Positions 8,310-37,681 of a stretch of 42,158 nucleotides of DNA are shown here, one piece after another. Below the pieces are notes generated by a model. It was not told where the DNA came from, did not search any database, and was given only the letters and a program-made list of their open reading frames with translations. Made by a program: the position numbers and the translations under genes. The first letter of the stretch is position 1; every line of letters begins with the position of its first letter. The stretch comes from a virus: the IMG/VR virus record IMGVR_UViG_3300050021_000189, positions 1-42,158 of that record; one strand, 5' to 3'.

Positions 8310-8420
8310 TTCCTCTCAGATGTGCTTCCAGCGATGCCGGAGAGCAACTCAACACGAGGCGCCGGAGCGCCAGCATTACGTCCTACGTCATCGGCTTGCA
8401 TTGTCGGGATCTCACGACAG

Positions 8421-9251
8421 TCACCTCGGGTAACGGTTACGTGGATCCCGCGCCGCCGCCACGAGGTCATTGGTCCGGGGCCGCAGGTACTTGTCAGCCT
8501 CCATGAGCGCGACAACCTCCTCCTGAACTGTGGTCGCAACCTTGATATTGATCTCGCGAATGGAATTTTTCATCCACTGACCCTTGAGATTGCGGTACTT
8601 GACGGTGGAGGTTGTGGTGATCATCGACAAGCCGGGAGCAAGACGTGCCGCCGCCTTTACCTCCTCCACCAGGTCGACCGCCCCGATCACTGCACCCACC
8701 GCTTGGCTCAGGAATTGGAGCTCCAGTGCTCCTGGATTGATGTTGTTGACAGCGTGCTCGTAGTGACGGTGTGCAATATGGCTAGGGTTATGCTTACTGC
8801 CGATCCTGCCCTGGACGAACGGGATCTTTTCCAGAGGAGCCTGGCTCATTAACCAGCGAAACATCTGCTTCCGTCGATGCTGAAGGCTCCCCTTACCATC
8901 CTTGGGGGTGAGCAGCGTCATGTTTGGTCCATTACCGCCACCCATGAAATACCACAAAGCGCGACGAGCCGCCTTTAGAGCAATGGCCTTCTCATTGGTT
9001 CTGAAGGGAACAAACTTCTGAGCATCAAAGCCACCGAATTCAGCCAGGTTGCCACCGATCAGCGAGTTCGGCCTGAAGTTCGTCCCGGCCCGCGGTCCCC
9101 ATAAACCAATGAGATACCGTCCCGCGTTCTCCCCACCGCCTTGCTCAATCAGACGCCAGTACCGACTCACCTTAGAGCTGGGACCGTTCAGCCACTCGAA
9201 GATGCCAACAGTCCAGCCTTGCTTACCGCCGAACTCGCTATTGCCTGCCAT
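8421..9251 (-). CDS. Virion-associated protein of the connector-tail region
   Basis: A 276-residue protein of no family I recognise. ATG 9251 (MAGNSEFGGKQGW) is chosen because AGGGAGG lies five bases upstream; the upstream frame lacks an RBS and is Cys/Ser/Trp-rich noise. The first half is rich in Gly and aromatic residues, and the second half is basic and helical with a possible amphipathic segment near residues 160-190 (VGAVIGAVDLVEEVKAA). It overlaps the end of the 95-residue gene upstream by 14 bases and precedes the major tail protein, so a tail completion or minor tail role is likely. A HK97 gp10-type neck protein is possible but the length is about twice the usual. Confidence 0.6.
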   Translation of the reverse strand: MAGNSEFGGKQGWTVGIFEWLNGPSSKVSRYWRLIEQGGGENAGRYLIGLWGPRAGTNFRPNSLIGGNLAEFGGFDAQKFVPFRTNEKAIALKAARRALWYFMGGGNGPNMTLLTPKDGKGSLQHRRKQMFRWLMSQAPLEKIPFVQGRIGSKHNPSHIAHRHYEHAVNNINPGALELQFLSQAVGAVIGAVDLVEEVKAAARLAPGLSMITTTSTVKYRNLKGQWMKNSIREINIKVATTVQEEVVALMEADKYLRPRTNDLVAAARDPRNRYPR

Positions 9252-9525
9252 CACGCCTCCCTGCAACCACCACGACGCGATGCATCTGCTCAACCAACTC
9301 GAGCATGTGCTGGTTGACCACCTCGCTATCACTGGGCGAGGTCGCCTTCAGGCAGTCCAATGCCGTGTCGTGATAGGCCCCAATCGCCCGGACGACCACC
9401 TCACGCAACTCGCGACGAGCATCTGGCGACAGGTGGGGATAGACGTCTCTTTCGACGTAACCCATGATCGAGGCGACAAGTCGCTTATGCGAGCTCGAGA
9501 GCAGACTGCTCAGTTCCTGGCCCAC
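9238..9525 (-). CDS. Small helical protein, connector cluster
   Basis: A 95-residue protein predicted almost wholly helical, with charged surfaces (SSHKRLVASIMGYVERDVYP). It starts with GTG 9525, four bases after the stop of the preceding gene, with no strong RBS, which suggests translation coupled to that gene. It overlaps the next gene by 14 bases. No family is recognised. Its place among the head-tail connector genes suggests a small structural or assembly role. Confidence 0.6.
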   Translation of the reverse strand: MGQELSSLLSSSHKRLVASIMGYVERDVYPHLSPDARRELREVVVRAIGAYHDTALDCLKATSPSDSEVVNQHMLELVEQMHRVVVVAGRRDGRQ

Positions 9526-9528
9526 AGG

Positions 9529-10053
9529 TCAATCACGCTTCGTGAATAGGAGCGCGAAAATGTCACTAGTCAAAGAGCCCGCACCACCCGTGAGCGCGAC
9601 CTCAAGGGCAACTGAACATGCAGGTGTTACCACACCGATCACTGACCGATTATCAATGAGGTAGGTAGCAACCATCGCAGTCACCGGTATTGAACAGAGA
9701 ATCTCAGCAGCCAGAGGTATAAAACTGCCACTACTGCCGAGCATAAGTACGAGATCTTGCGCCCCGCTGATCCCATTGATTTTGAACCAGCAGGTGATGT
9801 CATACACCCCAGCCGGAAGGGTGATGACAACCCCGTCCAATGCCAGTGACGCACCCATGATCGTGTTGGTGACCACCGCTAGCGCCGGATAGGTGTCGCC
9901 AGAACTCAAGTCCGTGTCAGCTACCAGATTGAGCAAGAGTTGCTCGACCGCGACAGCATCGAAGATGCCCTGCTCGATATGGTCGAGCGAGGGCGCATCG
10001 ATGGGCGTGCCACCTTCAGATCCATTCGCCCAAACCTGTTTCGTGTAGCTCAT
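9529..10053 (-). CDS. Minor virion protein with TPxxAxxLxxIExGI motif
   Basis: A 174-residue protein. ATG 10053 (MSYTKQVWANGSEGGTPID) has GCGGAG six bases upstream; the longer upstream frame has no RBS. The N-terminal motif VWANGSEGGTPIDAPSLDHI followed by EQGI recurs at the head of many phage tail-fibre and surface proteins, where it lies before a trimerising or receptor-binding domain. The remaining 130 residues are beta-rich with alternating hydrophobics (VVITLPAGVYDITCWFKING), which resembles a TNF/C1q-like jelly roll. It is therefore a likely surface or receptor-contact protein, although it sits inside the connector cluster. The fold is an inference from pattern only. Confidence 0.65.
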   Translation of the reverse strand: MSYTKQVWANGSEGGTPIDAPSLDHIEQGIFDAVAVEQLLLNLVADTDLSSGDTYPALAVVTNTIMGASLALDGVVITLPAGVYDITCWFKINGISGAQDLVLMLGSSGSFIPLAAEILCSIPVTAMVATYLIDNRSVIGVVTPACSVALEVALTGGAGSLTSDIFALLFTKRD

Positions 10054-10054
10054 G

Positions 10055-10672
10055 TCAAACTCCGCTCGGATAGACGGCTGGGCCCGGATAAACAGCCGGA
10101 CCCGGATAGAGTGCAAATACCGCGCCCTCCAAGGCGTTTTCGGTAGCAGTGAACTCGTGGACACAGGTCAGTTTCACGATCTCCCAGTGCAGTTTGTACA
10201 TCGACATCTCTGGGCGGGTAACCTCCACGTCCTCGAAATGAAGAAGATGACCCACTGCTGGTACAGCAGGGAAGACCGAGTAATCCATGAGGCGCTGATA
10301 CCTGCTCGTCCCCGGCAGGCGCCCCGTCAGTACCGCTCGAACATCACCGGCAATCGCCTTACCCACGCCGACATTCTCGCCGTAGATGTCGATGAAAAAG
10401 GTGTGATCGGTCGTCCACAGGCCACCCTCACTGGCCCCGAGTTCAGCCTCGACATCATCAGGGGTGGCGCCCTGAGTGAACGCCACGGTATTCGGAGCCA
10501 AGGTGGTTAGCTTGGGATCTGGAACGTCCTCGATCATGGTGATGGGCGATGTCGCGCCATAAGGCAGATCAGCTACAGCGCTCGCCATCCAGTCCAGAAT
10601 GGTCAGTTGAACCGTCACGTAGTCGTACACAGATCGATAGAGCATCCGGTCCTGGTTGCGAAGATATGCCAC
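10055..10672 (-). CDS. Tail terminator / tail completion candidate
   Basis: A protein of about 205 residues. I prefer GTG 10672, which has AGGGG about six bases upstream and begins five bases after the preceding stop; an ATG at 10702 would add ten residues but has no RBS. The sequence (YRSVYDYVTVQLTILDWMASAV at the N terminus, then HTFFIDIYGENVGVGKAIAGD) resembles the size and pattern of tail terminator proteins, which cap the tail tube and join it to the connector. It is fourth in a connector-type gene row and precedes the tail genes. The C terminus holds a short repeat, YPGPAV twice, matched by a small tandem duplication in the DNA. Confidence 0.55.
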   Translation of the reverse strand: MAYLRNQDRMLYRSVYDYVTVQLTILDWMASAVADLPYGATSPITMIEDVPDPKLTTLAPNTVAFTQGATPDDVEAELGASEGGLWTTDHTFFIDIYGENVGVGKAIAGDVRAVLTGRLPGTSRYQRLMDYSVFPAVPAVGHLLHFEDVEVTRPEMSMYKLHWEIVKLTCVHEFTATENALEGAVFALYPGPAVYPGPAVYPSGV

Positions 10673-11131: not shown

Positions 11132-11665
11132 TTACCAGCTCAGTTCATAGGGGAAGAATCCGCCCGCGATACCCATCTGAAGCGCGGCAAAGTTGTAACC
11201 CCATGGAGGCATCAGGGTCCGGGCGAGATAGGCGTCAGTCATGGTGATCGCCTGGCTGGCGCGAGCAATCCGCAACGCCTGAGCAATGAGCTGATCCCTG
11301 CGAGCCTGGAGCATCTTGAGCTCCTGGACAAGAACCGTCACGCCGAAGTCCTTCTCGTACTTCGAGCCAGCAGACTCATACGCCGTCCGAGACGGCGTGG
11401 CGCGAATCTTGGAGATCAGGACGCTCTCGGCAGCATAGAAGGCGATCAGAGCGCCGCCGGCAGCTGACAGGTCCGGAGTGACAACGCCCGTTGAAGTATC
11501 CAAGGTCTGCGTACCGAAGTAGCCATCCAGCTTCGCCTTGGCGAAAGCATCGCCCAACGTACCCAGTAGGTCGGAGTCCTCGGTACTGGGATAGGTGGCG
11601 TCAAACTCGCCAGGAACAGCAAGATCGCGCTTCAAACCCTCGGTCAGTGTCGCCAGGTCGGTCAT
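11132..11665 (-). CDS. Head-tail adaptor (gp6/gp15-like) candidate
   Basis: A 177-residue protein with a helical body; AGGAAG precedes ATG 11665. The pattern of a helical N-terminal half (LATLTEGLKRDLAVPGEF), a central helix with AALIAFYAAESVL-like composition and a long charged helix (VLVQELKMLQARRDQLIAQA) is typical of head-tail adaptor rings, which bind the underside of the portal. It is the first of the connector genes after the repeat protein. The evidence is gene order and secondary-structure pattern. Confidence 0.55.
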   Translation of the reverse strand: MTDLATLTEGLKRDLAVPGEFDATYPSTEDSDLLGTLGDAFAKAKLDGYFGTQTLDTSTGVVTPDLSAAGGALIAFYAAESVLISKIRATPSRTAYESAGSKYEKDFGVTVLVQELKMLQARRDQLIAQALRIARASQAITMTDAYLARTLMPPWGYNFAALQMGIAGGFFPYELSW

Positions 11666-11683: not shown

Positions 11684-12031
11684 CTAGGCGGAAGAGACGA
11701 GGATGACAGCAGGACTGGTACGAATAATGACCTCTGGAGCACTGGTCAATCGCAACTGTGGCGTGGTGCTGCTCCCCGCCGCCAGAACCACCCCACCTAC
11801 AGAACCAACGTTGGGCCCAGCCACAAGAACTCGTACATGCGTCGGTGCTCCTATCCCATTCCAGACCGAGAAGGACCCGTCATTGGTCTCGACAACCCAG
11901 TCCATCTCTACCCATGTCGCAGATGGAGGGAACCGAATCTCCATATGGCCCGTGACGGGCGATGGCAGTCCAGAAACCGGAAAGTGCAGATACTCCCTAC
12001 CCGCAAGATTGAGCTTGACCCTGACGGCCAT
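11684..12031 (-). CDS. Small beta-rich protein next to the repeat protein
   Basis: A 115-residue protein with an excellent RBS (GGGAGG, five bases before ATG 12031). It is nearly all beta by pattern (VEMDWVVETNDGSFSVWNG), with no Cys and few charged residues. It lies ten bases after the end of the 2309-residue gene, so the two are probably made together; it may cap or anchor that fibre or decorate the capsid. No family is recognised. Confidence 0.55.
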   Translation of the reverse strand: MAVRVKLNLAGREYLHFPVSGLPSPVTGHMEIRFPPSATWVEMDWVVETNDGSFSVWNGIGAPTHVRVLVAGPNVGSVGGVVLAAGSSTTPQLRLTSAPEVIIRTSPAVILVSSA

Positions 12032-12040
12032 CGTGCCTCC

Positions 12041-15000
12041 CTACAGTGTTGCCATGTCGATGCTCAATGAGTTGTCGGCAGCATTGTCCACGAGCAGAGG
12101 GTCGAAGGTCGGCGCATCAAGCACCCAAAGAACAGGAGCGCCTATCACCAACTGGGATTCCAGACTCCCGGTGGGCACCTCCATACTGAACGGCACACCT
12201 AGCGTCAATGGGTTGCCGATCGGGATGGCGACCTCCAGGGGGGCAACGGTCGCCACCTCCAGCACCATCAAGGGCGGGACGCCCACCGCCAGCAGCGAGT
12301 CCACACTGGCCGCCAGCAACTCCAACAGGGGCAACGGAGCCCCTACGACAACGGTGACGTCCTGACCAAGAGCGCCAATCACCGTGATAATGCCCGAGCC
12401 ACCCAAAGTGACAATGCTGGACACTGCCGCGATGGCCACCATTGCGAGCCCACCGGAGCCGCTGAGCGCAACAGTGCCGCCCAGTTCCAGTGCACCAGCA
12501 GCGCCCAGTGAGCCTGAACCGGTCAAATGTGCCGCGGTCCCGACTTCTGGTATACCCCCGGTCGCAAGCCCACCGGAGCCATTGAAGCTCACCGCACCGC
12601 TGGGCCAAGGCGCTCCAATGAAAGACAGAACGCCGGAACCATTCAGGACTGCCGGGCCGCGGTAACCCAAGACGCCAATGGTGACCAACACGCCAACACC
12701 ATCGAGGTTGACAATCCCCCCGATCCGCAGCACGCCCGCCAAGCCAAGAGTGCCAGAGCCGGTCAGTGGGACGATTGCGAACCTCGTCCCAACGGGACGG
12801 AGGTGACCCGCACCCATCAACTCGACAGAACTAGCGATGGCCGGACTCTGGCCCACACCCAGAGCACCAGAGCCACCAAGAGTGCACGCGCCGACATGGC
12901 CATAGACCCCGGTCAGCGTCAGAGCACCCTCACCACTCAGGGTGACACCGCCCGACAGTCGCGAGACACCCGCAGTTGCCAGAATGCCCGCGCCGGCCAG
13001 AACTGCAGAACCCGAGAATCCTGCAACGCGCGTTGTAGTCAAGGTTCCAACGCCACCGAGCGTGAGCTCGGTATGGATCTTCGGCAGGCCAGTCACAGAC
13101 AGGGAGCCCGCACCGCTCAGGGTGATCAACTCGTGACAGTGCACGACGCCCGCGACGCTCAGGCTGCCACCGCCAGCAAGAGTGGCTACGCCAACGAAAG
13201 CTGGCGTTCCGGTAATAACCAGGGCCCCGGCACCACCGAAGGTCGCCACCTCGGAAAGAACCGGCATTCCTACGGTGGCCAGCTGCCCAGATCCGGCCAG
13301 GTCCGCCGCCGTAAGAATGGCGGGCACACCAACCACGGTCAAGACACCCAAGCCCGACAGCCCCGCCGCACCGATCTGACCTACCGCACCCAGAGAGCCT
13401 GAACCATCCAGCGTGACCACGACAGTCAGGTCAGGTGCGGCAATCGCACCAAGCGCACCCTTACCCGACAGCGCTACCGTGCTGGAAATCGCCGGGAGGG
13501 TAACGACACCAAGAACGCCCTCGCTAGACAGGTCAACCTGACCTGGTAGCGCGGGAACCTCGGTGACAACGAGCGTTCCAGAACCGGCAAGGTCGACCCA
13601 GATGGCCCAGTCGGGCTCAACTGCCAGCGTCAGTGTTCCAGGACCCGACAGTGCGGCAGTTGTGACGATCCCAGGCACGCCTACGGCATCAAGGATGCCC
13701 GAACCAGCCAAAATGACCGCAGTTGTGACATCCGGCGCACCGACAGCATCCAGAGAACCGCTGCCGCTCAGCGACGACCCAGCCACAAGTGCCGGTACGC
13801 CAGACACGGCGAGGATACCGGCACTAGACAGGGAAGCAACACCCTCGAAGCCGATAATCTGCGCGACGCCGGAAACTTCCAGCAGGCCCGATCCGGACAG
13901 GTCGACAGTACCGGAAACTGCAACAACAGCGACAAGTTCGAGAACACCAGACCCGCTCAATGACGCGACACTGGGAATCGAAACGATCCCTGTGGTCACC
14001 AACAATCCCTGACCGGTCAACGCCAGGGCACTAACAATGGCCGGGACGCCCGTGCCGCCGAGCAATCCCGATCCAGTGAGGTCCGCGGCCCCGAAACCAC
14101 TCGCAACGCCAGTAGTGATGAGAGTTCCATTGCCAGAGAGCGTGGCGATACCAGAGATCGCAGGGACGCTAGTAGCAGCGAGAGCCCCCGAGCTAGCCAA
14201 GCTAACAACGCCCGTTATGGCGGGAGCCTGCACAGCTGCAAGCAGGCCCGCACCGCCCAGTGCAGCGATCCCGGTGATGGCTGGCACGCCCCCGGCCACC
14301 AGGGCACCACTACCACTCAATCCTTCAGGGATCGGTATAGCCGGTGCCCCAACACCAATCAGAGTGCCGGACCCAGACAAAGCCACCGGGGTCGAGAAGC
14401 CATTGACCACGCCGGTCATAGCGAGAATGCCGGATCCAGTTAATGCCACCACTGCCAAGATCGCTGGAACCCCAGCAGCCGCCAATGAGCCAGAGCCAGT
14501 CAGCGCTACCGAGACTGAAACGGCAGGCACGCCTGCAAGCACAAGCGCGCCCGAACCGGACAGTCCTACCGCAACAGGGATGGACGGGGCGCCGACGAGG
14601 ACCAGCGTTCCAGAACCAGACAAAGCTATCGAGATTGGAATGGCCGGGACACCTATTACCCCGAGAGTTCCCGAGCCAGCCAGAGTCACGGAGCCGATGA
14701 ATCCAACACCAGTAAGGATGCCAACGCCCGTGAGGGTGGCCGTGCCGGTGAGAGCTGGGACGCACGCCAACGTGAGAGTGCCCGTGCCCGTAAGGGCAGA
14801 CGAACCGGAAATCCAAGGCGCTCCGATGACACCAAGCGATCCAGTGCCAGAGAGGGTAACCGCGCCAATAAATCCAACCGCCGTCAGAGCACCGGACCCA
14901 CTCAGTCCAGCCGTACTAGAGAGAGAGGGAGCGCCTACGACGCCCAGCGAGCCTGAGCCACCGAGAGTTGCTACTCCAATGAATCCGACCGCACTGAAGA

Positions 15001-18000
15001 CTCCAGACCCGCTCAGCGCAGCCGTACCAATAATGGACGGCGCAGCGGTCGCACCAAGAGTGCCAGATCCACTCAACGCCTGAGTTGTACTCGACCACGG
15101 TGCTCCTGTCAGGACCAGCAAACCGGAGCCGCTGAGCGTAGTAATGCTGGAGGTGGTCAGGGACGACGTGAATGTCAGAGTGCCGGAACCACTCAATACC
15201 GCTGTGGACGGAAGTGCAGGCAGACCCGTCTCGCTCAGAGTTCCCGCACCCGAGAGGACAGCGGTACCTGTGATTGAGGGCACGCCCGACGAGCCGAGCG
15301 AGCCGGTACCGCTCAGAACAGCGGACCCGATGAACCCTACTGCGATGAACGTCCCCGAGCCGGACAGAGCCACAGTCGAGGTGATCGAGGGCAGCCCGAT
15401 CAGGCTCAGTGTTCCGCTACCGCTGAGAGCAGCCGTACCTGGTATGGCCGGAACCGGAGTCAGGCCCATCGTGCCGACACCGGACAGAATGACGGTGCCT
15501 GTGACAGCCGGGACGCCCGTCGAGCTCAGTGAGCCTCCACCGCTTAGCGCTGCTACCGCCATAATTACAGGGACGACGGTCAGACCGAGCGCACCTGAGC
15601 CGGTCAGCGGGACTGGCGTCGAGAAGCCATTGACCACGCCCAAGGCAGCGAGCAGACCACTGCCGCTCAGAGACTCGAGCCCAGGGAGAGCCGGAGCGCC
15701 TGTCGAGGTCAGAGATCCGCTGCCCGTCAGCACGACGGAAGTCGAGAACCCGTTGACTACTCCAGTCACAGTCAGCAAACCGCTACCGCTGAGCCCTTCG
15801 ACGCCAGGCACGGCAAGAGTGGCGACAGCAGTCAGCGTACCAGATCCGGACAGGGCCACGGGGATTGAGAGTCGTGGCAGGCCAGAGAGAGACAGTAATC
15901 CACTGCCGGTCAGTGCGGCCATGCCCGGAACAGCAAGAGTGACGCTGGACCCGAGCGTGCCCGTTCCGCTTAGCGCCGCAGTTCCGATCACCGTCAGCAC
16001 ACCAGACAAGCCCAGCGTTCCACCACCACTGAGCGCTGCAGAGCCGATAAACCCTACTCCTGTAAGGGTTCCCGTCCCTGTCAGTGCAACCATGCCCGTG
16101 ATCGAGGGAGCGCCAAGGACGCCCAGCGTACCTACGCCACTCAGGCTCTCGAGTCCAGGTAACGCCGGGGCACCCACGGCAAGGAGGGTGCCGGAACCGC
16201 TCAACGTGGCCGAGCTAAATGGGTGAGGAGAACCGCTCACCGTCAGGAGGCTTGAGCCTGTCAGTACCGCTGCACCGATGAACCCAACGCCAGTCAGAAC
16301 ACCGGTCCCGGCCAGGCTAGCGACACCAGTGATAGCCGGGACGCCAGATGTGACCAGGGTACCTGTGCCGCTCAGAGCCCGCAAAATAGGAAGTGACGGA
16401 GTACCGACCGCCGTGAGTGTGCCCGACCCCGTGAGAGTGGTCGTCCCGCCTTTGGGCCAGGGCAGCCCGACAGCGGCAAGAGTGCCAGACCCGGACAAAG
16501 TGGAACTACCGGTAATCGCAGGACTACCTGCAGTGCTTAACGCTCCAGACCCCGAGAGCGCGCTTCCACTGACGGTACTGGTGGCATTGAAGTGGGCGAG
16601 CACCTGTGCGCTGGTCAACGCGTAGGGATAGAACGCCACCTCGTCAATCGAGCCGTCGAATCCCAGGTTGACGGGGTCCACTTGGCGGCCAATGGAGTAG
16701 CCGTAGCCTGATGAACCTACTATCGGAGCAGCCGTAGAGCCGTAGATATAGGGAGCGTTCGACCGCTCAACCCCGTCCACATACAGGTGCATGTGCGTCG
16801 CGGGATCAATCGACACCCCGGCAACACCATTCAGAACCCCGACAACATGATGCCATGCGCCATCATTAACCAAGGTGGCACCAGAGCCGAGGTGCGCCCA
16901 AATTGAGTCACCATTGACCGTCAGGATCAATGAGCCGTTCGTCGGACTTCCCAGCCAACTGGAGTAACCCACGCCGAGAAGAAGCCCCGTATGGTGTCCA
17001 CTCAGCCAGTCTCGGTCGCCCACAATCCAGCGACCGTAAGCGGTGGTCTTGATCCAAGCTTCGAGGCTGAACTTAGAATGGTTTAGTACGACACTCGGTG
17101 CTAAAACCTTGTCGAGAGTTGCATCGGCAAACGTCATTGAGTAGCTAGACCCGACATGAGCAGGACTCTGATGAGTAAGCGTCGAGCCACTGATCTTTCC
17201 ACTGCCAGCAGTAACACTGCTATCAGCAGCTCCTGTGTTCCCTAGCGTGATCTCAGCAATAGAGGTGTAGAAGGCATCACCGTTGTTCGCGGTGATAAAG
17301 ATCCGATAGTAGAGGAACACTACAACATTGGCGAACGCAAAACTCTGAATCTGTCCCGGCGTAGGCCAGGCGATCCCTGTCCGAGAATCCAGAGTGGTCC
17401 ATGTGCTGCCATTATTGGAGCCCTGAAAGACCCAGTTCATAGGGTTACGGTTCGGAAGATCATCACGACGCGTAATCGAATACGAGGTCAATGCCGTAGC
17501 CGAGACCAGTTGCGCTCTCCACCACTGTGGCAGGGCAGAACCGTTAGTCGTCCAGAACGTCAGAGGACTACCATCCACCGCCATACTGGGTATTTCCGAG
17601 TACCACCATTCCGAGGCGGTCGTCGCGGCAATAGCAGCCTGCCCGTAGTAATCATCCAGCTCAAAATAACCGAGAGGTGCATCAGCCAGAACAACACTCG
17701 CATAGGAAGTTCCGCTACGGATCGCAGGCACGCCTACCGCACTGAGCGTGCCTCCACCTGACAAGGTGGCCGCGCTGGAAATAGCCAGGAACCCAGAGAC
17801 ATGGAAGTTATCGACGTAGCAGAGTTGTCCGGCCGTGGCGGCGGAAGCCGCAAGCTGGACACTCATGTAATGCATGGTGTTCTTGGATGCGACGAAGTCC
17901 GGCAGAGTCAACGTCTGCCAGGCGTCATAGATGGTCTGCTGCACATTTGAAGAGAAGCCGAAGCACTCAAGGAAGGACACCTGTGGATTGCCGCTCGGCA

Positions 18001-18970
18001 CATAAACATCGACCTGGAACGAGTACGTCTGACCGATAACCAGGCCATCTACGCCGACCACCGCTCCGCAGTAACCAGAAACAGTGGGCCAGGTAATTAG
18101 CAGTGACTTCGTGCCATCGCTGGCCCGCACTGAGCTATTGGCGATAGCACAGGCCGCTGCTGCACCATAGAAGTTATTGCCCCAAGCCCCGGTCGTGCCG
18201 CCCTCGAATGAGTTGTTCTCAGCGCCGATGTCCGGGAGAGCGACAAGGGTTCCGCTGCCGCTGAGGGTACAGGTACCGGTGTGGTCCTCGGACGGGATCA
18301 GAGCCGCGACAACCAGGCCCTGATAGTTAGCGCCGGCTGTCGGGTTGAATGTCTGAACACCGGTAGCATTGACAATCTTGTACTGGAGCAGGCTAGAGCC
18401 AAAAGTGGATGTGTTTTGAGAACCAGCGCTCCATGACCCGGCCAGGGCGTCAGCGTCCGCGGTGAAACCCATACCGCCCTGTAGACCTGCTCCACCGATC
18501 ACCAGATCGCCAGAGACCAAGGCAGTACCTGACGTGGAACAGGTGCCGTTACCATTGGTACTGCTACGTGTCCCTACTGTGCCTCGCAGAGTGGCTGAGA
18601 CACCTGAATACTCGTTGAGAATTATCACCGAGCCAAGAGTGAACGCCCCAGGAGTCCCAGACCACGTAACCGTGACGCTGTACCCAACACTCCATGGGAC
18701 GGTGGTCTTGATCGCCCACAGTTCACCCACGCAGCCAGCACCGGGAGTGCTGGTCGAACAGGTATGTCCTGCAAGTTTCACCCACGACGCTGTCTCACCA
18801 GTGGGCTTGCTGATACTGCTGACAGTTGGTGTCGTTGTTGATAGGTTGCTACATGCGTTCCAGCAGACGAGGGTATTCAATGCCGAAACTGCCGAAGTCG
18901 CTATGCTAACCGAGACAGTGGCAGTTCCGGATTGGGTCTTGCCGACGTTACGGACAAACGCGACCGTCAT
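12041..18970 (-). CDS. Giant repeat protein with carbohydrate-binding-like domains (virion fibre candidate)
   Basis: A 2309-residue uninterrupted protein with a strong RBS (AAGGGAGG before ATG 18970). In order: a beta-rich domain with many Cys/Thr (1-230); one copy of a LSGSGTL repeat (233-249); a CBM4/9-like jelly roll (251-395, beginning ENNSFEGGTTGAW); a second lone repeat (398-418); a discoidin/F5-8C-like domain (426-578; PSMAVDGSPLTFWTT, then WVFQGSNNGSTWTTL); a LamG/concanavalin-like domain (580-795; FSLEAWIKT, AWHHVVGVLNG, GSIDEVAFY); about 71 tandem 20-residue repeats (800-2205); and a hydrophobic Leu/Val/Pro-rich tail. The lectin-type folds suggest binding to host-surface or environmental glycans; the array suggests an extended beta-solenoid or fibre. 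It lies between the capsid and connector genes rather than among tail fibres. No signal peptide or enzyme motif was seen. Confidence 0.85.
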   Translation of the reverse strand: MTVAFVRNVGKTQSGTATVSVSIATSAVSALNTLVCWNACSNLSTTTPTVSSISKPTGETASWVKLAGHTCSTSTPGAGCVGELWAIKTTVPWSVGYSVTVTWSGTPGAFTLGSVIILNEYSGVSATLRGTVGTRSSTNGNGTCSTSGTALVSGDLVIGGAGLQGGMGFTADADALAGSWSAGSQNTSTFGSSLLQYKIVNATGVQTFNPTAGANYQGLVVAALIPSEDHTGTCTLSGSGTLVALPDIGAENNSFEGGTTGAWGNNFYGAAAACAIANSSVRASDGTKSLLITWPTVSGYCGAVVGVDGLVIGQTYSFQVDVYVPSGNPQVSFLECFGFSSNVQQTIYDAWQTLTLPDFVASKNTMHYMSVQLAASAATAGQLCYVDNFHVSGFLAISSAATLSGGGTLSAVGVPAIRSGTSYASVVLADAPLGYFELDDYYGQAAIAATTASEWWYSEIPSMAVDGSPLTFWTTNGSALPQWWRAQLVSATALTSYSITRRDDLPNRNPMNWVFQGSNNGSTWTTLDSRTGIAWPTPGQIQSFAFANVVVFLYYRIFITANNGDAFYTSIAEITLGNTGAADSSVTAGSGKISGSTLTHQSPAHVGSSYSMTFADATLDKVLAPSVVLNHSKFSLEAWIKTTAYGRWIVGDRDWLSGHHTGLLLGVGYSSWLGSPTNGSLILTVNGDSIWAHLGSGATLVNDGAWHHVVGVLNGVAGVSIDPATHMHLYVDGVERSNAPYIYGSTAAPIVGSSGYGYSIGRQVDPVNLGFDGSIDEVAFYPYALTSAQVLAHFNATSTVSGSALSGSGALSTAGSPAITGSSTLSGSGTLAAVGLPWPKGGTTTLTGSGTLTAVGTPSLPILRALSGTGTLVTSGVPAITGVASLAGTGVLTGVGFIGAAVLTGSSLLTVSGSPHPFSSATLSGSGTLLAVGAPALPGLESLSGVGTLGVLGAPSITGMVALTGTGTLTGVGFIGSAALSGGGTLGLSGVLTVIGTAALSGTGTLGSSVTLAVPGMAALTGSGLLSLSGLPRLSIPVALSGSGTLTAVATLAVPGVEGLSGSGLLTVTGVVNGFSTSVVLTGSGSLTSTGAPALPGLESLSGSGLLAALGVVNGFSTPVPLTGSGALGLTVVPVIMAVAALSGGGSLSSTGVPAVTGTVILSGVGTMGLTPVPAIPGTAALSGSGTLSLIGLPSITSTVALSGSGTFIAVGFIGSAVLSGTGSLGSSGVPSITGTAVLSGAGTLSETGLPALPSTAVLSGSGTLTFTSSLTTSSITTLSGSGLLVLTGAPWSSTTQALSGSGTLGATAAPSIIGTAALSGSGVFSAVGFIGVATLGGSGSLGVVGAPSLSSTAGLSGSGALTAVGFIGAVTLSGTGSLGVIGAPWISGSSALTGTGTLTLACVPALTGTATLTGVGILTGVGFIGSVTLAGSGTLGVIGVPAIPISIALSGSGTLVLVGAPSIPVAVGLSGSGALVLAGVPAVSVSVALTGSGSLAAAGVPAILAVVALTGSGILAMTGVVNGFSTPVALSGSGTLIGVGAPAIPIPEGLSGSGALVAGGVPAITGIAALGGAGLLAAVQAPAITGVVSLASSGALAATSVPAISGIATLSGNGTLITTGVASGFGAADLTGSGLLGGTGVPAIVSALALTGQGLLVTTGIVSIPSVASLSGSGVLELVAVVAVSGTVDLSGSGLLEVSGVAQIIGFEGVASLSSAGILAVSGVPALVAGSSLSGSGSLDAVGAPDVTTAVILAGSGILDAVGVPGIVTTAALSGPGTLTLAVEPDWAIWVDLAGSGTLVVTEVPALPGQVDLSSEGVLGVVTLPAISSTVALSGKGALGAIAAPDLTVVVTLDGSGSLGAVGQIGAAGLSGLGVLTVVGVPAILTAADLAGSGQLATVGMPVLSEVATFGGAGALVITGTPAFVGVATLAGGGSLSVAGVVHCHELITLSGAGSLSVTGLPKIHTELTLGGVGTLTTTRVAGFSGSAVLAGAGILATAGVSRLSGGVTLSGEGALTLTGVYGHVGACTLGGSGALGVGQSPAIASSVELMGAGHLRPVGTRFAIVPLTGSGTLGLAGVLRIGGIVNLDGVGVLVTIGVLGYRGPAVLNGSGVLSFIGAPWPSGAVSFNGSGGLATGGIPEVGTAAHLTGSGSLGAAGALELGGTVALSGSGGLAMVAIAAVSSIVTLGGSGIITVIGALGQDVTVVVGAPLPLLELLAASVDSLLAVGVPPLMVLEVATVAPLEVAIPIGNPLTLGVPFSMEVPTGSLESQLVIGAPVLWVLDAPTFDPLLVDNAADNSLSIDMATL
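12360..16575 (-). repeat. About 71 tandem ~60-bp (20-residue) coding repeats
   Basis: Counted by eye in the translation: about 71 consecutive units of form xxxLSGSGTLxxxGxPxIxx, with 17-residue variants ending GFIG and a variant ending VVNGFS. LSGSG/LTGSG/LAGSG is the fixed core and the spacer residues vary. DNA copies have diverged, so the array is not a recent slippage product, yet near-identical neighbouring variants suggest segmental duplication. Confidence 0.85.
13025..13034. promoter_or_regulatory. AACGCGCGTT palindrome, site 2 (within CDS)
   Basis: An exact copy of the ten-base palindrome, inside the repeat-protein gene, where it encodes Thr-Arg-Val in place of the usual repeat residues. 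Confidence 0.4.
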
Positions 18971-19375: not shown

Positions 19376-19627
19376 TTAGATCAGATGAGCCGGGATAACT
19401 GTTTCGCCGTCCGGCCCACCTGGGCCGTAGTCCGGCTCGTCACTGATGACGACCGAAGACCACTTCTGGCGGGCGTCCTTGACGTAGGCCTCCAAAATCG
19501 AGGCGGGCACGTAATCCACCGCCTGGTGATTCGCAGCGGTCATCGTCACCCGGTATTTCTCGTCGGTGACCGTTGCTAGGGCGTCCTGCCATCCTGGTTC
19601 CTTTGTCATGGCCACAGTCATCGGCAT
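19376..19627 (-). CDS. Small acidic protein
   Basis: An 83-residue protein with no recognised family. Three in-frame ATGs (19627, 19621, 19609) are possible, none with a strong RBS. The C-terminal part (SDEPDYGPGGPDGETVIP) is acidic and Gly/Pro-rich. It lies 13 bases before the gp80-like gene and after a gap containing two inverted repeats, so it may be the first gene of a re-initiated transcript. Confidence 0.5.
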   Translation of the reverse strand: MPMTVAMTKEPGWQDALATVTDEKYRVTMTAANHQAVDYVPASILEAYVKDARQKWSSVVISDEPDYGPGGPDGETVIPAHLI

Positions 19628-19749: not shown

Positions 19750-19950
19750 TCAGTTAGGCCATGCACCCACGTAGTCCAGAAGCGCACTTACCGAAACACG
19801 CATCGTGGCCTTATTCGCCTCGGGCACGTCAGCCCACGGCTTCCGACTCGCCGGATTGGTATCCCACCCAGCACCAACAGCCGCCGCCTCGTAGGCATCG
19901 TGCATGACCTCGCAGCACAATTCGACGTACTGCTCCTTGGTAACGATCAC
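19750..19950 (-). CDS. RyR-domain-like small protein
   Basis: A 66-residue protein with the pattern MHDAYEAAAVGAGWDTNPAS followed by PWADVPEANKATMRVSVSAL, which resembles the RyR repeat fold seen as short stand-alone proteins in phages (E/H...A...GW...P...V...K...). GTG 19950 overlaps the TGA of the upstream gene (GTGA), so translation is coupled. The function of such phage proteins is not known. Confidence 0.5.
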   Translation of the reverse strand: MIVTKEQYVELCCEVMHDAYEAAAVGAGWDTNPASRKPWADVPEANKATMRVSVSALLDYVGAWPN

Positions 19951-20543
19951 GACAGTTGCTCGCTCTTGTTGTCACCAAGAGTGGTCTGAGGACCACCGGT
20001 AACCGTGTAGCGATCCCGGAGCGCCTCTTCAAGCAGCGCGATCTTCTTGTGGCCGACATCCATGGAGATGCCGATCTCCACCATCCTGCGCATCACCACC
20101 TCGCCCCACTTCTCGACATTGGCGGTGAACTGGGTCATCGGAAGATCGAAGGCATCCAAGATCCCCTCAGTCGTCAGTGCATCGGCGCTAGCCGTGCTGG
20201 GATCATCCTGCTGATCGGCGTCAACGCGCGTTAGCATCCCATTCAGGAACGGATCCAGAGCAGGGTTCATGCATCGTGACTGGTTCTCCTCCCGGTCCAC
20301 CGTCTTCAGCTTGAACTGCTGTCCCTGACGGTTGGGGCCATAGGACAGCTCACCTTCGACCAGCTGACCAAACCTGTTGGTAATCAGCACCCGCAGATGA
20401 ATGGTGCCAGGCACCTCGATCAGCCAGATCTCTTCACCCGCACCAGCCTTCAGTCCGGGCTTGACGAACTGAGGCCAGACCCTGCTCGCCGCGGTGTCGG
20501 TCTGGTCATCCAGCCTCAGGTTGCGATCGGTGGGAATGCTCAT
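19947..20543 (-). CDS. Hypothetical protein following the hydrolase
   Basis: A 198-residue protein whose ATG overlaps the stop of the peptidoglycan hydrolase gene (ATGA). The first half is beta-rich (GEEIWLIEVPGTIHLRVLIT) and the second half helical (EKWGEVVMRRMVEIGISMD). No family is recognised. Tight coupling to the hydrolase suggests a shared lysis or virion-entry role, but nothing in the sequence shows it. Confidence 0.55.
   Translation of the reverse strand: MSIPTDRNLRLDDQTDTAASRVWPQFVKPGLKAGAGEEIWLIEVPGTIHLRVLITNRFGQLVEGELSYGPNRQGQQFKLKTVDREENQSRCMNPALDPFLNGMLTRVDADQQDDPSTASADALTTEGILDAFDLPMTQFTANVEKWGEVVMRRMVEIGISMDVGHKKIALLEEALRDRYTVTGGPQTTLGDNKSEQLS
20223..20232. promoter_or_regulatory. 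AACGCGCGTT palindrome, site 3 (within CDS)
   Basis: An exact ten-base palindrome in the 198-residue gene, again encoding Thr-Arg-Val. Confidence 0.4.
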
Positions 20544-21289
20544 GCCAGATGTCCTTCCACTAGAGCGATGTACTGCTTCACGTTGGCCGTCCCCCAGAAG
20601 TCAGGACGCCCCGCCTTTACCCACCCCATCGCACCGGTAATCCCCAGGTTGTAGGCAGCGATGGCGTCGCCCTGCACGTAACTCATGGCCTTGAGGTTGC
20701 TGTCGATGAATCCGACGATCCACTTGATCGCCTTGATCGGATCCAGACGGTCATCCACACTCAGGGCAGGATGTGACGGGCCACTAATCTGGCCGATCCC
20801 GAGATCATGGGGATCGGCATAACCGACCGCACCGGGGTCGATCATGGACTCCGCGAAGAGGGTGCCCATGGCCAGCCCGTACAGCTGATCGACATGCAGC
20901 GCGTTTTGCAGCTTCGCGGCAACCTTGACCACGGGGGCGAACAGAGAATGGCAGGTCTGCGGACCCACCACGCCGTCAACCTCCAGACCGCTCCTCTGCT
21001 GGTACGCCTTGACGCTGGCGCCAGTCAATGGGCCGAAGTAACCATCAGCATCGGCGCCGACCAGAAACTGGATCCCCTTGACTGCCATGTAGACGGCATA
21101 GACATCGATCGAGCAAGACGTCTGATGCTGAATGGCATAGGCACCCGCCTCACCGGCCTGGCTCGTAGCGATGGTCGGTGTCCGGTAGTACGGACCGCGG
21201 CCATTGCCCGATTCGTTGAAGGTGCCACCGAGGCCGCTGTCAGGAAATGCACCGCGTCCATGAGCTGGGTAGGTCAAAGCAAATGTCAT
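20540..21289 (-). CDS. Peptidoglycan hydrolase: PG-binding plus SLT-type transglycosylase domain
   Basis: A 249-residue protein. ATG 21289 is chosen for GGGGAGA seven bases upstream; the longer frame has none. Residues 70-115 match PG_binding_1 (VKGIQFLVGADADGYFGPLT, then VDGVVGPQT). Residues 132-245 match a lysozyme/SLT transglycosylase: LFAESMIDP with Glu147 as the likely catalytic acid, GIGQIS, and AAYNLG. It should cut the glycan strand of peptidoglycan, either as endolysin or as a virion-borne entry enzyme. Its place between capsid and virion genes favours the latter, but no other lysin is visible in the window. No signal peptide was seen. A terminator and an opposite-strand gene separate it from the capsid gene, so it likely has its own promoter, which I could not identify. 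Confidence 0.75.
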   Translation of the reverse strand: MTFALTYPAHGRGAFPDSGLGGTFNESGNGRGPYYRTPTIATSQAGEAGAYAIQHQTSCSIDVYAVYMAVKGIQFLVGADADGYFGPLTGASVKAYQQRSGLEVDGVVGPQTCHSLFAPVVKVAAKLQNALHVDQLYGLAMGTLFAESMIDPGAVGYADPHDLGIGQISGPSHPALSVDDRLDPIKAIKWIVGFIDSNLKAMSYVQGDAIAAYNLGITGAMGWVKAGRPDFWGTANVKQYIALVEGHLA

Positions 21290-21374
21290 CCGAGTCTCCC
21301 CTGGCGAGTAGGTGAGGGAAGTCTCGGCACAAGTTCCACAGTTCCGACTCCAGTCATGCCGAAACTCAGAACCT

Positions 21375-21410
21375 CCTCCCGCGATGGGAGGTAGACGGCG
21401 TGAAGCCGTC
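21375..21410 (+). other. Two adjacent short hairpins
   Basis: CCTCCC-gcgat-GGGAGG (21375-21391) and GACGGC-gtgaa-GCCGTC (21394-21410) are perfect 6-bp stems with 5-base loops, three bases apart. They lie 22 bases ahead of the plus-strand gene at 21433 and opposite the upstream side of the hydrolase gene. They may form the leader of the plus-strand message. Confidence 0.5.
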
Positions 21411-21432
21411 AACCGTGAAGGTAGGTAGCGTG

Positions 21433-21764: not shown

Positions 21765-22739
21765 TTACGGCGTAACCGACGAGTCCACCACCCGGCGAGC
21801 TTGCTCCGGGTGATGCACCAGACCGCCGATGTCCTTGCGGGTCCGGTAGTGCCGGTAATCGACCGTGTTCTCGTCCCACGCCTTGACGACGAGGCCGCCA
21901 TACAAGGCGAACTTGCCGACCGTGCCGCCGAACACCCACAGCTCATTGGCCGGGATGAACGACAGACCAGCGTCGTCGGTGTAGTTGACGACCTGGTTGA
22001 CGTTGCACGCACGGTAGACGCCCAGGCGTCCCTTTGCGCGGATCTCAGCGGTCGCCTCGGGGTCGAAACCGAGGTTGAAGTCGCTGATCTGGTCGACCAT
22101 GGAGGCCCGACCGATGACCGTCACAGGCACGGGGCCCATGCCGTTGGGCTTGATCGCGTCCTTGACCTCGCGAATCGCGGTGTCGAGCTGGGACTTGGTG
22201 AGCCCAGCGGTGGCGACGTAGTTCGGAGAGGTGGACGGAACCGCAGCCTGAAGCAGGTTGAACATGCGCCGATTGACCTCAGCTTCGAGGCGCTGGCCGC
22301 CGAGGGACACGAGGTCCTCGATGGTCTCCGCGAAATTCATCCTGAGCTTGTCGATGTGCTCGCTGACGTGGAAGCCCAGCGTGTCTCGGGGGAGTTCCCA
22401 CTCCTCAGAGCGCAACTGGCTCTCTTCGATGTAGCCACCACGAGAGGTGTAGAACACCTTGAGGCCCCGGCGCTCGCGCAGGATCACGCGGTCGAACTCG
22501 CCGACGTTCTCGACGTTCAAGTAGGTGCTGAACAGGTTCTCGAAGGTGAACTGGTAGTCCAGGATGCTCTCGAGATCCGCTGCGATCTCACGGTGAAAGT
22601 CCGGGTTGTCCCATTCGGCACGCGCCCGGTCGTTGAGCTCCTGCTTGGCTGCCTGGTAGGCGTCCATGGACTCCGCGGAGCGGCCCCATGGATCAACAGC
22701 TGCCTTTGTCTTGGCCAAGGTCTTGACTGCACTGGTCAT
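21765..22739 (-). CDS. Major capsid protein (HK97 fold)
   Basis: A 324-residue protein. AAGGAG lies nine bases before ATG 22739. After a charged N-terminal helix come an E-loop-like stretch (RRGLKVFYTSRGGYIEESQL), a spine helix with AETIEDLVSLGGQRLEAEVN, and a P-domain/A-domain-like end (FGGTVGKFALYGGLVVKAWD), which together suit the HK97 fold. Gene order (protease, scaffold, decoration, capsid) confirms it. It should form the icosahedral shell. The strong terminator immediately downstream suggests that message levels for capsid are set separately from the later genes. Confidence 0.85.
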   Translation of the reverse strand: MTSAVKTLAKTKAAVDPWGRSAESMDAYQAAKQELNDRARAEWDNPDFHREIAADLESILDYQFTFENLFSTYLNVENVGEFDRVILRERRGLKVFYTSRGGYIEESQLRSEEWELPRDTLGFHVSEHIDKLRMNFAETIEDLVSLGGQRLEAEVNRRMFNLLQAAVPSTSPNYVATAGLTKSQLDTAIREVKDAIKPNGMGPVPVTVIGRASMVDQISDFNLGFDPEATAEIRAKGRLGVYRACNVNQVVNYTDDAGLSFIPANELWVFGGTVGKFALYGGLVVKAWDENTVDYRHYRTRKDIGGLVHHPEQARRVVDSSVTP

Positions 22740-27594: not shown

Positions 27595-30500
27595 TCAGCT
27601 CACGAACTGCTCCAACACCGGCCCGCGGCGACGCTTGGGGGCGAGAGCCGCCTCGATCGACTCCAGCTCCTTGCCCAGGATCATCACCTTGGCGCTGTCT
27701 AAGGTGTGATAAGAGCCAGCGCCGAACTTGATCTGAGATCCCGTCTTGGAATCCCCGTCATTGCGGCTGTAGACCACAACCTGGCCCTGGAATTCAGTCA
27801 ACAATTCCTTGTCGTAGGGCAGTTCAAGCATCTGGGCATCGACATACTCGCGCAGTTTGTCCGTGGCGAACATGATGATGTTCTTCTCGATCATCGCGTC
27901 CTCAGGAACCTCCCTGCCCACCAGTGGCCGGTCGTCATACTCCACGGCTCGCTTCTCACTGAAGCCGTAGCCCTTCACTCGGTCACGGATCCCCTTATGA
28001 GCCGGATCCTTGTCCATGTGCTGCCACACCGGCAGACCGGCACCCGACTTGTCCATCGACAGGGCCCGCAACCGATCCCCATAGAACCCGAACACCTTGG
28101 CGATAACCTTCTCCTGGTCCACCGCCGAGACCCGCATGAGGTGAATCCTGGCGAGCAAACGCAGCAGGTCGACATCCTCGCCATTGCGCTTCGCTTTAGT
28201 CACCCCGAAGATCAACAGCTCGCTCGGGTCTCTGGTGAAGCCGATATCCATCCCGGCCCAGTAGGACGAGTAGGACTTGTTCAGGTGACTTAGAGGCAGG
28301 TTGATGAAGGACTCGATCGGACGCCGCTCGAGCGACTCACCTTCGACCTTGATGAGCGTGTAGACGTTCTCGTTGTAGTCGGTGGCCCAGGTGGACTCGT
28401 TGATCCGCACACAGTTGTGGTTCAACAAAGGTGCATCTCCAGCGAAATATGAAGGGTGCCCAGAAACCGTCAAGTCATAAACTGTGACCTGATCTTCTCC
28501 ACCACTGAGTCGATCGAAGACCTCACTTCCGCGTTCGTGAACCTCAACACAGTCCACCCTTGCAAACATAGCCATTCGTCGCGAATACGATCCCGCGCCA
28601 TGGCCCTCTCCGTGAAGTGTTCCGGCCCGTCCACCTCGACGGCAATCTTCATCGACTGATGGGCCAGATCCAGCTGAAACCGAATCAGATCCTCCCCAAG
28701 AGCCCCCAAGGGGCTGATCCACAACTCGGGTTGCCACTCGTCGCCCAACGCCCGCCAGAGCACGAACTGATCCATGGGCAACCCGCCCCGCTCGCTCCTG
28801 CGCATATGGTGAGACTGCTTGAGAGGTCTGAGCTTTACCTTGCTCGCATACCAGCACACCTTCGAGCAAAAGCGATGCGTCCGACGCAATGGTTGAAACA
28901 TCACCGAGCAATGAGCGCACGACGCCATCGGCAATCGCGCGTCCGTCTGACGTGCGTTCGCGCACGCCTTGGAGCAGAACTTCACCTTCTTGTCCGCACG
29001 ATAGAACTCGGTCCCGCAACGCACACAGAACTTCGACACCTTGGTCTGCAATGGCCTGAAGGTCAGACCCGCCCACTTCGAGGAGCAGGTTCGCGAGCAA
29101 AACTTCCGGTCCAACTTCGCCATAAAGGTCGTTCCGCACTGGCGGCACACCTTCGGCCCAGTCGCAGGTTGACGGCTGGCGTTCCAGCACTCTTGATTGC
29201 AATAGTGATAGCTGTTCTTCCCCTCCAAAAGCTTCCCGCAATAACGGCATTCCATCTCGCGATGTGGGTTGGCTTCCCGCTTCTGTCGAGCCGCACATTC
29301 CCGCGAGCATGTCGTCCGTTGCGGAACTAGGATCTCCTTGCTGCACATGGGGCACGCCCCATAGGTCCTGTGACCAGCCGTTCGGCATTCCGTACTGCAG
29401 TACTTCGCCACCCAGCGAGACTGAAACAGAGTCCCGCAGGTCTGACACACCTGCGAGGGACGCTCCACTCGCCTCGCCATCCCCGCGCATTTTCGTGAAC
29501 AGTATTTGAGCTGACTTGGTAAGGTCAGCGTCTTGCCACAGACCTCGCAAGCCTTCAAGGGTGAAGATCCGATCCCCTGGCTGGAGTCGATCGGCATGGC
29601 GCCAACCGTGGTCGGTAAAGAAGGGGTGCTCCGGGGTGCAGTATTCGTCATGGCCATCAAGTCCGATCACGAGGATATGGTCACGCCTGCTCGGGATCAC
29701 GTCAGTGACGGTTCCAGTGCCGATCGCGTTGAGGACACTATCACCAACTCGTATGTTCTCAACAGACGTAGCGCGAACCTGACCATCTACTTCTTGATAG
29801 ATAGACGTGCCGGGAGTTCGACAGGCCATGAGTCGAGCCAGCACGAACACCCGGTTACTGACATCCCCGGCCTCGCCGTAGATATTGCGTTTGTAGTCCG
29901 GGTTGTCTCGCGACCCTCCATAGATCGCGATCTTTTGCCTACGCTCCTCCGGGGACCATGTGGGCCGGTACATGGCGGGGTAATGATGGACGAAGAACGG
30001 CAGATCAGCGTCCCCAGAGGTGACCCGGTGGTACATATCCCGGACCCCATTACTCACGCCGTGAGCACGCCACTGGGCCCCTGGGATGCCGTGCTTCATC
30101 GTCTCGATGAGTTCGACCCAGCCTGCCTGAACGTAATCCTGACCCTCGTCGAGCTCAAGAATCAAAGGGTGCTGGTTGTGGCTAATGAGCCCGTCAGCCA
30201 GATAGGAGTGATCATCCTTGACGTGCAAGTCGTAAACCATCTGCGGCTCAGCAGGCATGATCGAGCGAACCCGCATCCACTGCTGATGCTTTTCCATAAC
30301 AGCTTGATTCTTGGAGCCACTGAGCGTGACCCGGTGGGCCCGCATCGGCTTGACCTTCAGGGCCCGACCACAGATATGAGTGACATCCGGATCGACCCAG
30401 CTATATGACCCGGCCCAGCCCAGTGACTGACCCAGTAGACGAAGTCCGATCGCCAGTTCCTTGGAGGCGCTACTGAACGTCCAGCGCTGCTTCTGCTCAT

Positions 30501-35544: not shown

Positions 35545-35831
35545 CAGTTCTCCGGACGGTTCTGGATGGGAGGAACCCCTTCGGGGCCCTCCTGGATAGG
35601 CATGGGAGCCTCGTCAAGGATTGTGGTGATCTCCGGATACTGCGCGGGAGCGTGCTCCTCGATCTCGACCTCCTCAGGAGCTTCCTTGGGAGCTTCGCCG
35701 CCACAAGAACAGGCAGCTGGCACCAGAGAGCCATAGGGCGTCAACTCGAGCTCACGACGCTTGCCGCAGACCGAACAGTCGACTGCACCGAAGTCAGCGC
35801 CAGTCTCGTGGGGTTGGGTTAGGTCAGTCAT
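35544..35831 (-). CDS. 95-residue Cys-containing acidic protein
   Basis: ATG 35831 overlaps the TGA of the 585-residue gene (ATGA) and has GGAG seven bases upstream. CSVCGKRRELELTPYG and AACSCGG form a CxxC...CxC zinc-ribbon-like pair in the first half; the second half is Glu/Pro-rich and disordered. No family is recognised; it is a partner gene of the beta-repeat protein by coupling. Confidence 0.6.
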   Translation of the reverse strand: MTDLTQPHETGADFGAVDCSVCGKRRELELTPYGSLVPAACSCGGEAPKEAPEEVEIEEHAPAQYPEITTILDEAPMPIQEGPEGVPPIQNRPEN

Positions 35832-37585: not shown

Positions 37586-37642
37586 CGCCGACCTCCTTTC
37601 TCCGAGGTCTCCTATCGGCCAATTGCCCTTGGATCTACGCCT

Positions 37643-37652
37643 AACGCGCGTT
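37643..37652. promoter_or_regulatory. AACGCGCGTT palindrome, site 6
   Basis: An exact copy in the 150-base divergent region between the 585-residue gene (minus) and the Zn/HTH gene (plus). It runs into TTGACA (37651-37656) on the plus strand, so binding could block a promoter. Confidence 0.6.
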
Positions 37653-37660
37653 GACAGGAA

Positions 37661-37681
37661 CTGGCGCACGATCTGCGCCAG
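37661..37681. promoter_or_regulatory. Perfect 8-bp dyad CTGGCGCA-N5-TGCGCCAG
   Basis: A perfect inverted repeat beside site 6, between divergent genes. The preceding bases and left arm are shared with 33193-33208. It is a candidate operator for the divergent pair. Confidence 0.6.

Follow-up and report, generated by a model that had tools for sequence, protein, structure and literature searches.

A minus-strand gene in the viral DNA stretch analysed here encodes a repeat protein of 2309 residues which is probably, with a likelihood that we put at about 0.6, the extra-long shaft of a Gp80-type virion fibre with its C-terminus on the virion and its N-terminus distal. The window, by which we mean the whole stretch of 42,158 bases, is a linear IMG/VR record and is thus a genome fragment, where a preliminary description of the sequence had spoken of a phage genome. 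In the proposed module the small protein encoded at 19376, a Gp80-like bead protein encoded at 19006, the giant protein and a C-terminal partner encoded at 11684 would together build a long virion fibre. The C-terminal tail and the 11684 product would anchor this fibre, with the neck or the capsid vertex around it as the likeliest site on the virion, the 20-residue array would form the shaft, and the distal CBM-, discoidin- and LamG-like domains would bind glycans of the host surface or its environment. The Gp80-like protein would be the regular partner of the shaft and the N-terminus would be exchangeable. Virion presence, attachment place, glycan binding and contact between repeat and bead are what we infer on these grounds, and the polarity is suggested by gene and domain order, in which the N-termini vary and the C-terminal partner can be fused.

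The giant protein and its repeat

The open reading frame at 12041-18970 has an ATG start preceded by a strong ribosome site (GGGAGGC) and runs without internal stop, which bears out the earlier claim of a single giant repeat protein. Its parts are as follows.

12041..18970 (-): giant repeat protein, proposed fibre shaft or rope, ORF of 2309 aa
18281..18970 (-): N-terminal stretch, residues 1-230, without family or PDB match
18245..18265 (-): lone repeat core LSGSGTL, residues 236-242, motif scan
17981..18220 (-): CBM_4_9-like domain, residues 251-330, Pfam E 2.5e-4, below cut-off
17744..17764 (-): lone repeat core LSGGGTL, residues 403-409, motif scan
17249..17626 (-): F5/8 type C (discoidin) domain, residues 449-574, F5_F8_type_C E 3.7e-11
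16601..17113 (-): Laminin_G_3 / ConA-like lectin domain, residues 620-790, Pfam E 1.4e-19
12347..16558 (-): 20-residue repeat in a 71-copy tandem array, residues 805-2208, motif scan
12044..12346 (-): C-terminal tail, residues 2209-2309, proposed virion anchor, resembling the end of the repeat protein at the related locus L006

Three glycan-binding-like domains had been described at first sight and two of them stand, with Laminin_G_3 at 71.1 bits against a Pfam cut-off of 27.6 and F5_F8_type_C at 43.7 bits against 28.2, while the CBM_4_9 match is weak (21.9 bits, under the cut-off of 25.9). The discoidin domain also resembles PDB 7nsn (E 2.9e-20, residues 452-578) and is matched by phrog_17517, a 'tail protein'. 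The preliminary count of about 71 repeats and its lone repeats among the N-terminal domains were both recovered, and to its layout can be added the N-terminal 230 residues that match no family and a final stretch of about 100 residues that does not follow the 20-residue repeat. A tblastn search of the giant protein against named phages returned 15 records, all to the discoidin/LamG region only and none to residues 1-233, and in viral contigs its direct relatives came down to one LamG-type locus (L002). It is the longest among the repeat proteins found, with the next named here at 1900 aa (L017); in the pattern-search set 31 repeat ORFs are complete and have at least six cores in a chain, and the longest of these is 1190 aa.

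Each repeat unit opens with L-S-G-S-G-T-L, and L1, G3, G5 and L7 are nearly invariant across the 40 units of exactly 20 residues. The core expression gave 78 matches, from which five that overlapped in the wrong register were excluded, leaving 73 (71 in the array and the two lone cores). Spacing between cores is 20 residues in most steps of the array, the longest in-phase chain reaches 40 cores compared with at most 2 in 10 shuffles, and at lag 20 the autocorrelation (1.26) exceeds every one of 200 shuffles, whose maximum is -0.19. The invariant leucines and glycines are encoded by many synonymous codons and the 40 strictly 20-residue units share a mean pairwise identity of 38.5% with a maximum of 70%, from which we conclude that the array is ancient and has been maintained by selection at the protein level, not produced by a recent expansion of DNA. 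A frame-shift was considered as the origin of the odd C-terminus and dropped, the other two frames holding no continuation of the repeat and the proteins of L006 and L092 ending alike.

The repeat is not unique to the window, since dozens of phage contigs carry it. A DNA pattern for three in-phase repeats found 67 stretches on 65 contigs of the viral collection, 47 of them with a chain of at least six cores, and only 9 stretches in a far larger collection of cellular genomes. Two of the nine, both from Phycicoccus sp. HDW14, carry a chain of 14 cores, one with a bead gene in view; among the others, which have no bead gene, the repeats of L109 (chain of 8) and L111 (chain of 4) are of another look and the remaining five chains are of 1-2 cores. 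The array is mainly a phage feature. A query with the array of L057 found zero matches in named phages, a search in which the BLAST low-complexity filter may hide such arrays, and in the literature we found neither the motif string LSGSGTL nor a glycine-rich repeat capsid fiber of a phage. Arrays with 20-residue spacing of another flavour (such as FGQTGALTGSGALAGTAAL) and with unlike C-terminal regions were seen at L036/L042/L071, L065 and L087.

Neighbouring genes and the variable slot

The genes that flank the giant gene and figure in the proposed module are listed here.

19947..20543 (-): conserved gene, one border of the slot, by synteny
19376..19627 (-): 83-aa protein travelling with the bead gene, homologues directly before the bead gene in L091-L094
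19006..19362 (-): Gp80-like bead protein of 118 aa, putative fibre partner, PF23140 E 6.1e-7
11684..12031 (-): 115-aa partner of the C-terminus, present in L094 and L113 as a fused end of the repeat protein
11132..11665 (-): conserved gene, other border of the slot by synteny, head-tail adaptor as its position suggests

The bead gene ends 35 bp ahead of the start of the giant gene and its Pfam match is to 'Podophage GP4 fiber I protein gp80', a family matched by 21 of the 32 members of the 19006 family; it also matches phrog_240 'head protein' (E 5.4e-11). A profile built from the 32 relatives leads to chain a of PDB 8jou (E 1.8e-11), an entry entitled 'Fiber I and fiber-tail-adaptor of phage GP4', and with less strength to 9c39_K (1.9e-3) and 9mt4_I (9.1e-3). 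The AlphaFold2 model of the protein (pLDDT 91, pTM 0.82) was placed by VIA on the Bas63 connector chain 9mt4_L and the Sf14 neck chain 9c39_K with Z 11.8 and on GP4 fibre I (8jou_a) with Z 8.7, followed by the baseplate arm proteins of phi812 and A511 (Z 7.0-7.4).

Linkage between repeat and bead genes recurs. Across the 67 viral stretches a gene found by the 19006-family profile lies on the same strand within 4 kb upstream in 35, downstream in 4 and in neither place in 28, many of which end just before the expected position of the gene. When only loci with a chain of at least six cores and at least 4 kb of sequence are counted the bead gene is upstream on the same strand in 13 of 19, none of the 13 being near-identical to another, and absent there in six; downstream it occurs in 0 of 16. 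A reverse search with 19006 gave five loci, three of which have a repeat protein downstream and four a 19376 homologue ahead of the bead gene; two of the five lie on contigs already found through the repeat (L091 = L053, L094 = L041). The Slicko01 stretch 1-40000 has no bead gene. In L093 the bead gene is separated from another fibre-like gene by one for a 655-aa protein (8392-10356), the N-terminus of which resembles by eye a secreted phosphoesterase.

In L094 and in Phycicoccus HDW14 the repeat protein carries the 11684 domain at its C-terminus as part of a single polypeptide, from which we argue that the two work together. The HDW14 chromosome holds two much-alike repeat proteins of 765 aa with the fused domain, at about 0.85 and 4.05 Mb (L113 and L115). 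The 11684 protein itself gave zero Pfam matches and hhalign against Gp77 found nothing. The C-terminal tail of the giant protein resembles the end of the L006 protein with 48% identity over 33 aa (E 0.012). A period of 9-10 residues in such tails stands out in L092, PBC5, Lacusarx and Mae-JY04 (0-1 of 500 shuffles as high) but is weak in the window (lag 10, reached by 32 of 500 shuffles) and in L006, POI1126, JC1, BcepIL02 and DC1 (12, 23, 51, 92 and 195 of 500); no argument is based on it.

Searching with the capsid protein (21765-22739) yielded 19 viral loci and the named phage GX15bay, whose capsid protein is 42% identical to that of the window. The common order is portal, protease, scaffold, decoration, capsid, 19947, the slot, 11132, 10677, 10055, 8421 and 6588, with several of the loci ending early at contig ends and with roles named by gene order except where Pfam or PHROG matches exist. 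This synteny supports the location between capsid and connector genes given in the preliminary description. Both border genes were seen in 9 of the 20 relatives and in those nine the slot lies between head genes; it holds no fibre gene in at least four of the 20 (L007, L008, L014 and L015), the homologues of 19947 and 11132 being only 171 bp apart in L007 and L008. In other relatives fibre-like genes of many kinds fill the slot: a 957-aa protein with the same kind of repeat (L006), the 1900-aa protein of L017, a 575-aa protein with similar repeats (L018), a collagen-like protein of 1806 aa (L016) and a 532-aa protein (L003). Only 3 and 6 of 2000 column permutations scored better than the units of L006 and L017 against the unit profile of the window, and L006 also carries a homologue of 11684 (63%) behind its repeat gene.

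Several further features of this region were noted. Collagen-like GxT repeat proteins of up to 1806 aa occupy or adjoin the slot at L016:13373-18790 and L018:14735-16240. Between capsid and slot the window encodes a protein with transglycosylase SLT and peptidoglycan-binding domains (20540-21412, minus strand), perhaps a virion-borne lysin, and in the connector cluster a second fibre-like gene (9529-10164, minus strand) whose short N-terminal part resembles PHROG 5711 'head fiber protein' (E 1.2e-7). The large terminase (27595-31680, minus strand, 1361 aa) has two apparent inteins, one with Intein_splicing, Hint_2 and LAGLIDADG matches at about residues 163-502 and one with a Hint-type match (PT-HINT) from about residue 640. 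A 613-aa protein at 35828-37669 on the minus strand carries several copies of a GGTFTLTFGGQTT-type domain with four matches to the PHROGs 'major tail protein' and 'tail sheath', though it lies upstream of the terminase.

Fold of the repeat and alternative readings

Structure prediction bears on how the array would build a shaft. With ten repeat units and 25 sequences AlphaFold2 gave a regular beta-solenoid with an E-E-E pattern of three strands per unit (pLDDT 74.7, pTM 0.66), as a single chain without a Gp80-like partner and from a repeat alignment in a register that we chose and that favours a regular solenoid. The preliminary description had expected a beta-solenoid, which the model provides at only middling confidence, and the disorder of the repeats that it had named as speaking against its proposal was not predicted. 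VIA-align placed the model on beta-helix chains such as 8cpk, 7o9p, 4opw and 3lyc (Z 15-18, rmsd 2.1-3.4), and the repeat profile matches the DUF2807-like PDB entry 3jx8 at E 7.7e-5 and 3lyc at E 1.6e-3. These results would fit an array that is a self-standing beta-solenoid rod like the autotransporter-type or DUF2807 adhesins, with the Gp80-like protein a mere neighbour or the fibre base, and we hold this to be a serious contender at somewhat less than even odds; at three strands per coil, 71 coils of 0.48 nm would come to about 34 nm. The DUF2807 or head-GIN beta-helix adhesins have a similar SGSG-type repeat with spacing of about 20 residues, but their PDB members are Bacteroidota proteins of about 250 residues. 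PF10988 was matched by 5 of 25 array stretches but not by that of the window, whose own 10-unit stretch hit zero Pfam families, and Foldseek of the model against PDB returned nothing at E <= 0.001; this and the chosen register count against the rod. So does a warning in the accessible text of PMC13243795, which calls AlphaFold beta-helices poor and possibly hallucinated for the repetitive part of a module in phage LSH1 that seems to be the same.

The site of the fibre is open to a different reading, in which the gene merely happens to lie among head genes and its product sits at the tail tip as a tail fibre or minor tail protein. The mycobacterial prophage prophiFSQJ01-1 has its repeat gene in the tail/lysis region behind the tape measure gene, annotated as minor tail protein and with the bead gene downstream, and the module of L094 is also in a tail/lysis region, near a gene that looks lysin-like by eye; gene position alone thus cannot fix the site of the fibre. 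The phrog_17517 match of the discoidin domain and the likeness of the bead fold to baseplate arm proteins point the same way. We nevertheless regard a tail-tip position as unlikely, given that the bead protein is closest in fold to neck proteins and that the slot lies between head genes wherever both borders were seen. Far more improbable is a role outside the virion, in which the lysogen or infected host would secrete the protein or carry it on the cell surface. Bacterial adhesins also combine lectin-like domains and repeats, which lends this idea some plausibility, but the N-terminus of the giant protein shows no evident signal peptide by eye, the pattern is concentrated in viral stretches and the gene sits within a structural cluster. 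Of the capsid fibre or very long adhesive filament proposed earlier, the long virion fibre is favoured by synteny and by the homologue of the GP4 fibre partner; attachment over the capsid surface is not, the neck or head vertex being likelier.

Within the preferred reading of a Gp80-type fibre shaft, we put forward only tentatively, and as something that we would sooner doubt than expect, that each 20-residue repeat captures one Gp80-like subunit, so that the chain would string about 70 of them (about 35 dimers) into a giant neck fibre of beads threaded on a rope, and the number of repeats would set the length. The gp80-adjacent proteins of GP4-like phages have about 10-11 repeats by eye, with five in PBC5, and PDB 8jou contains 10 chains of gp80 sequence, which is consistent with one bead per repeat, if weakly so. 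Were it true, the lone repeats between the N-terminal domains would bind beads as well, one rule would cover actinobacterial, proteobacterial and cyanobacterial phages and extend to the short Sf14 whisker, and fibre length would be measured off by the number of repeats as by a molecular ruler, with the array usable as a scaffold.

Comparison with known fibres and whiskers

In phage GP4, an elongated rope protein reportedly connects gp80 dimers at the head vertex that bears the tail. The window shares with GP4 fibre I a homologous bead protein whose gene immediately precedes that of the long protein, and with GP4-like phages a next protein that often has a 20-residue period and a small protein encoded after it. 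A gp80 homologue followed by a protein of 246-625 aa occurs in BcepMigl, JC1, BcepIL02, DC1, CSP3, Itty13, POI1126, Lacusarx and Mae-JY04; in BcepIL02 the corresponding trio gp55-gp57 is annotated as virion-associated, and among the Pfam-checked phages Gp77 is next or close by in BcepMigl, Lacusarx and Mae-JY04. In five of the nine long proteins (BcepIL02, DC1, CSP3, POI1126 and Mae-JY04) the autocorrelation peaks at lag 20 and there exceeds all 200 shuffles; in the other four the leading lag is 22 then 20 (JC1), 10 then 20 (Itty13), and 20 (BcepMigl) or 18-20 (Lacusarx), both within the range of the shuffles. The long proteins of GP4-like phages had no convincing sequence match in PDB.

The differences from GP4 fibre I are equally plain. 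The window has about 71 repeats against about 5-11 by eye in GP4-like phages, its protein bears large lectin-like N-terminal domains, it lacks Gp77 (PF23148), whose place in the gene order is taken by 11684, and its repeats have no detectable sequence homology to those of GP4 fibre I. With hhalign the array of the window against the gp80-adjacent repeat proteins of Lessievirus-type phages reached a probability of 0.1%, and in the unit-profile test 1039 of 2000 permutations were as good (181 of 2000 for POI1126). Period, position and partner are common to the two systems, and shared descent of the repeats lacks support because both tests were negative. Our profile recovered Gp77 in only five of the loci searched, including an overlapping frame in L068 that is doubtful, and Gp77 is accordingly not general to the fibre class; the gene in its place in L018 has a weak BppU_N match below cut-off. 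Since Gp77 is missing and homology of the repeats was not detected, we do not file the window protein as a member of GP4 fibre I, although as proposed it would work in the same way.

The neck whiskers of Sf14 and Bas63 are alike in their bead, the model superposing on 9c39_K and 9mt4_L over 103 residues with rmsd 2.3 and 2.1. According to the accessible part of PMC11821841 a whisker set in Sf14 consists of two gp30 and two gp31 chains, with one gp30 threading two whiskers. The gene order of Bas63 suggests that its 110-aa bead is the counterpart of Sf14 gp31. Unlike the proposed shaft these whiskers are short, and the adjacent protein of Bas63 has 166 aa and no such array. The available text of PMC13243795 describes gp34-gp36 of the Alishewanella phage LSH1 as an 'extra structural module' of three co-occurring virion genes, and this looks like the same module as that of the window: the large protein has an N-terminal domain that looks glycan-active and a C-terminal part that is predicted poorly and may be repetitive, the middle protein matches 8JOU_g and the third has an Ig fold. 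Compared by description, the same text differs in giving neither a 20-residue repeat nor a function for the C-terminal part. The five neck fibres of Anabaena phage A-1(L), made by gp80-gp82, are also built of repeated beads and are about 100 nm long, but they are head-to-tail gp81 trimers for which the accessible account (PMC10966104) describes no rope protein. The name gp80 is in that phage a coincidence of numbering with gp80 of GP4.

The preliminary description did not recognise the design, a view that no longer holds with the repeat in dozens of phage contigs and a module related to GP4 fibre I and to neck whiskers. The fibre class is already known from single structures, and what is new, as far as our searches go, is how long the protein is, the lectin-like domains that it bears as payload and how generally bead and repeat are paired. 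A 20-residue period beside a gene of the Gp80 family would serve as a sequence rule for finding members of a widespread class of phage fibres, most of which lack annotation; what such phages hold on to would be read from the variable N-terminal part. The finding also joins three things that had been described separately: GP4 fibre I, the neck whiskers of Sf14 and Bas63 and the unexplained LSH1 module with its badly predicted domain.
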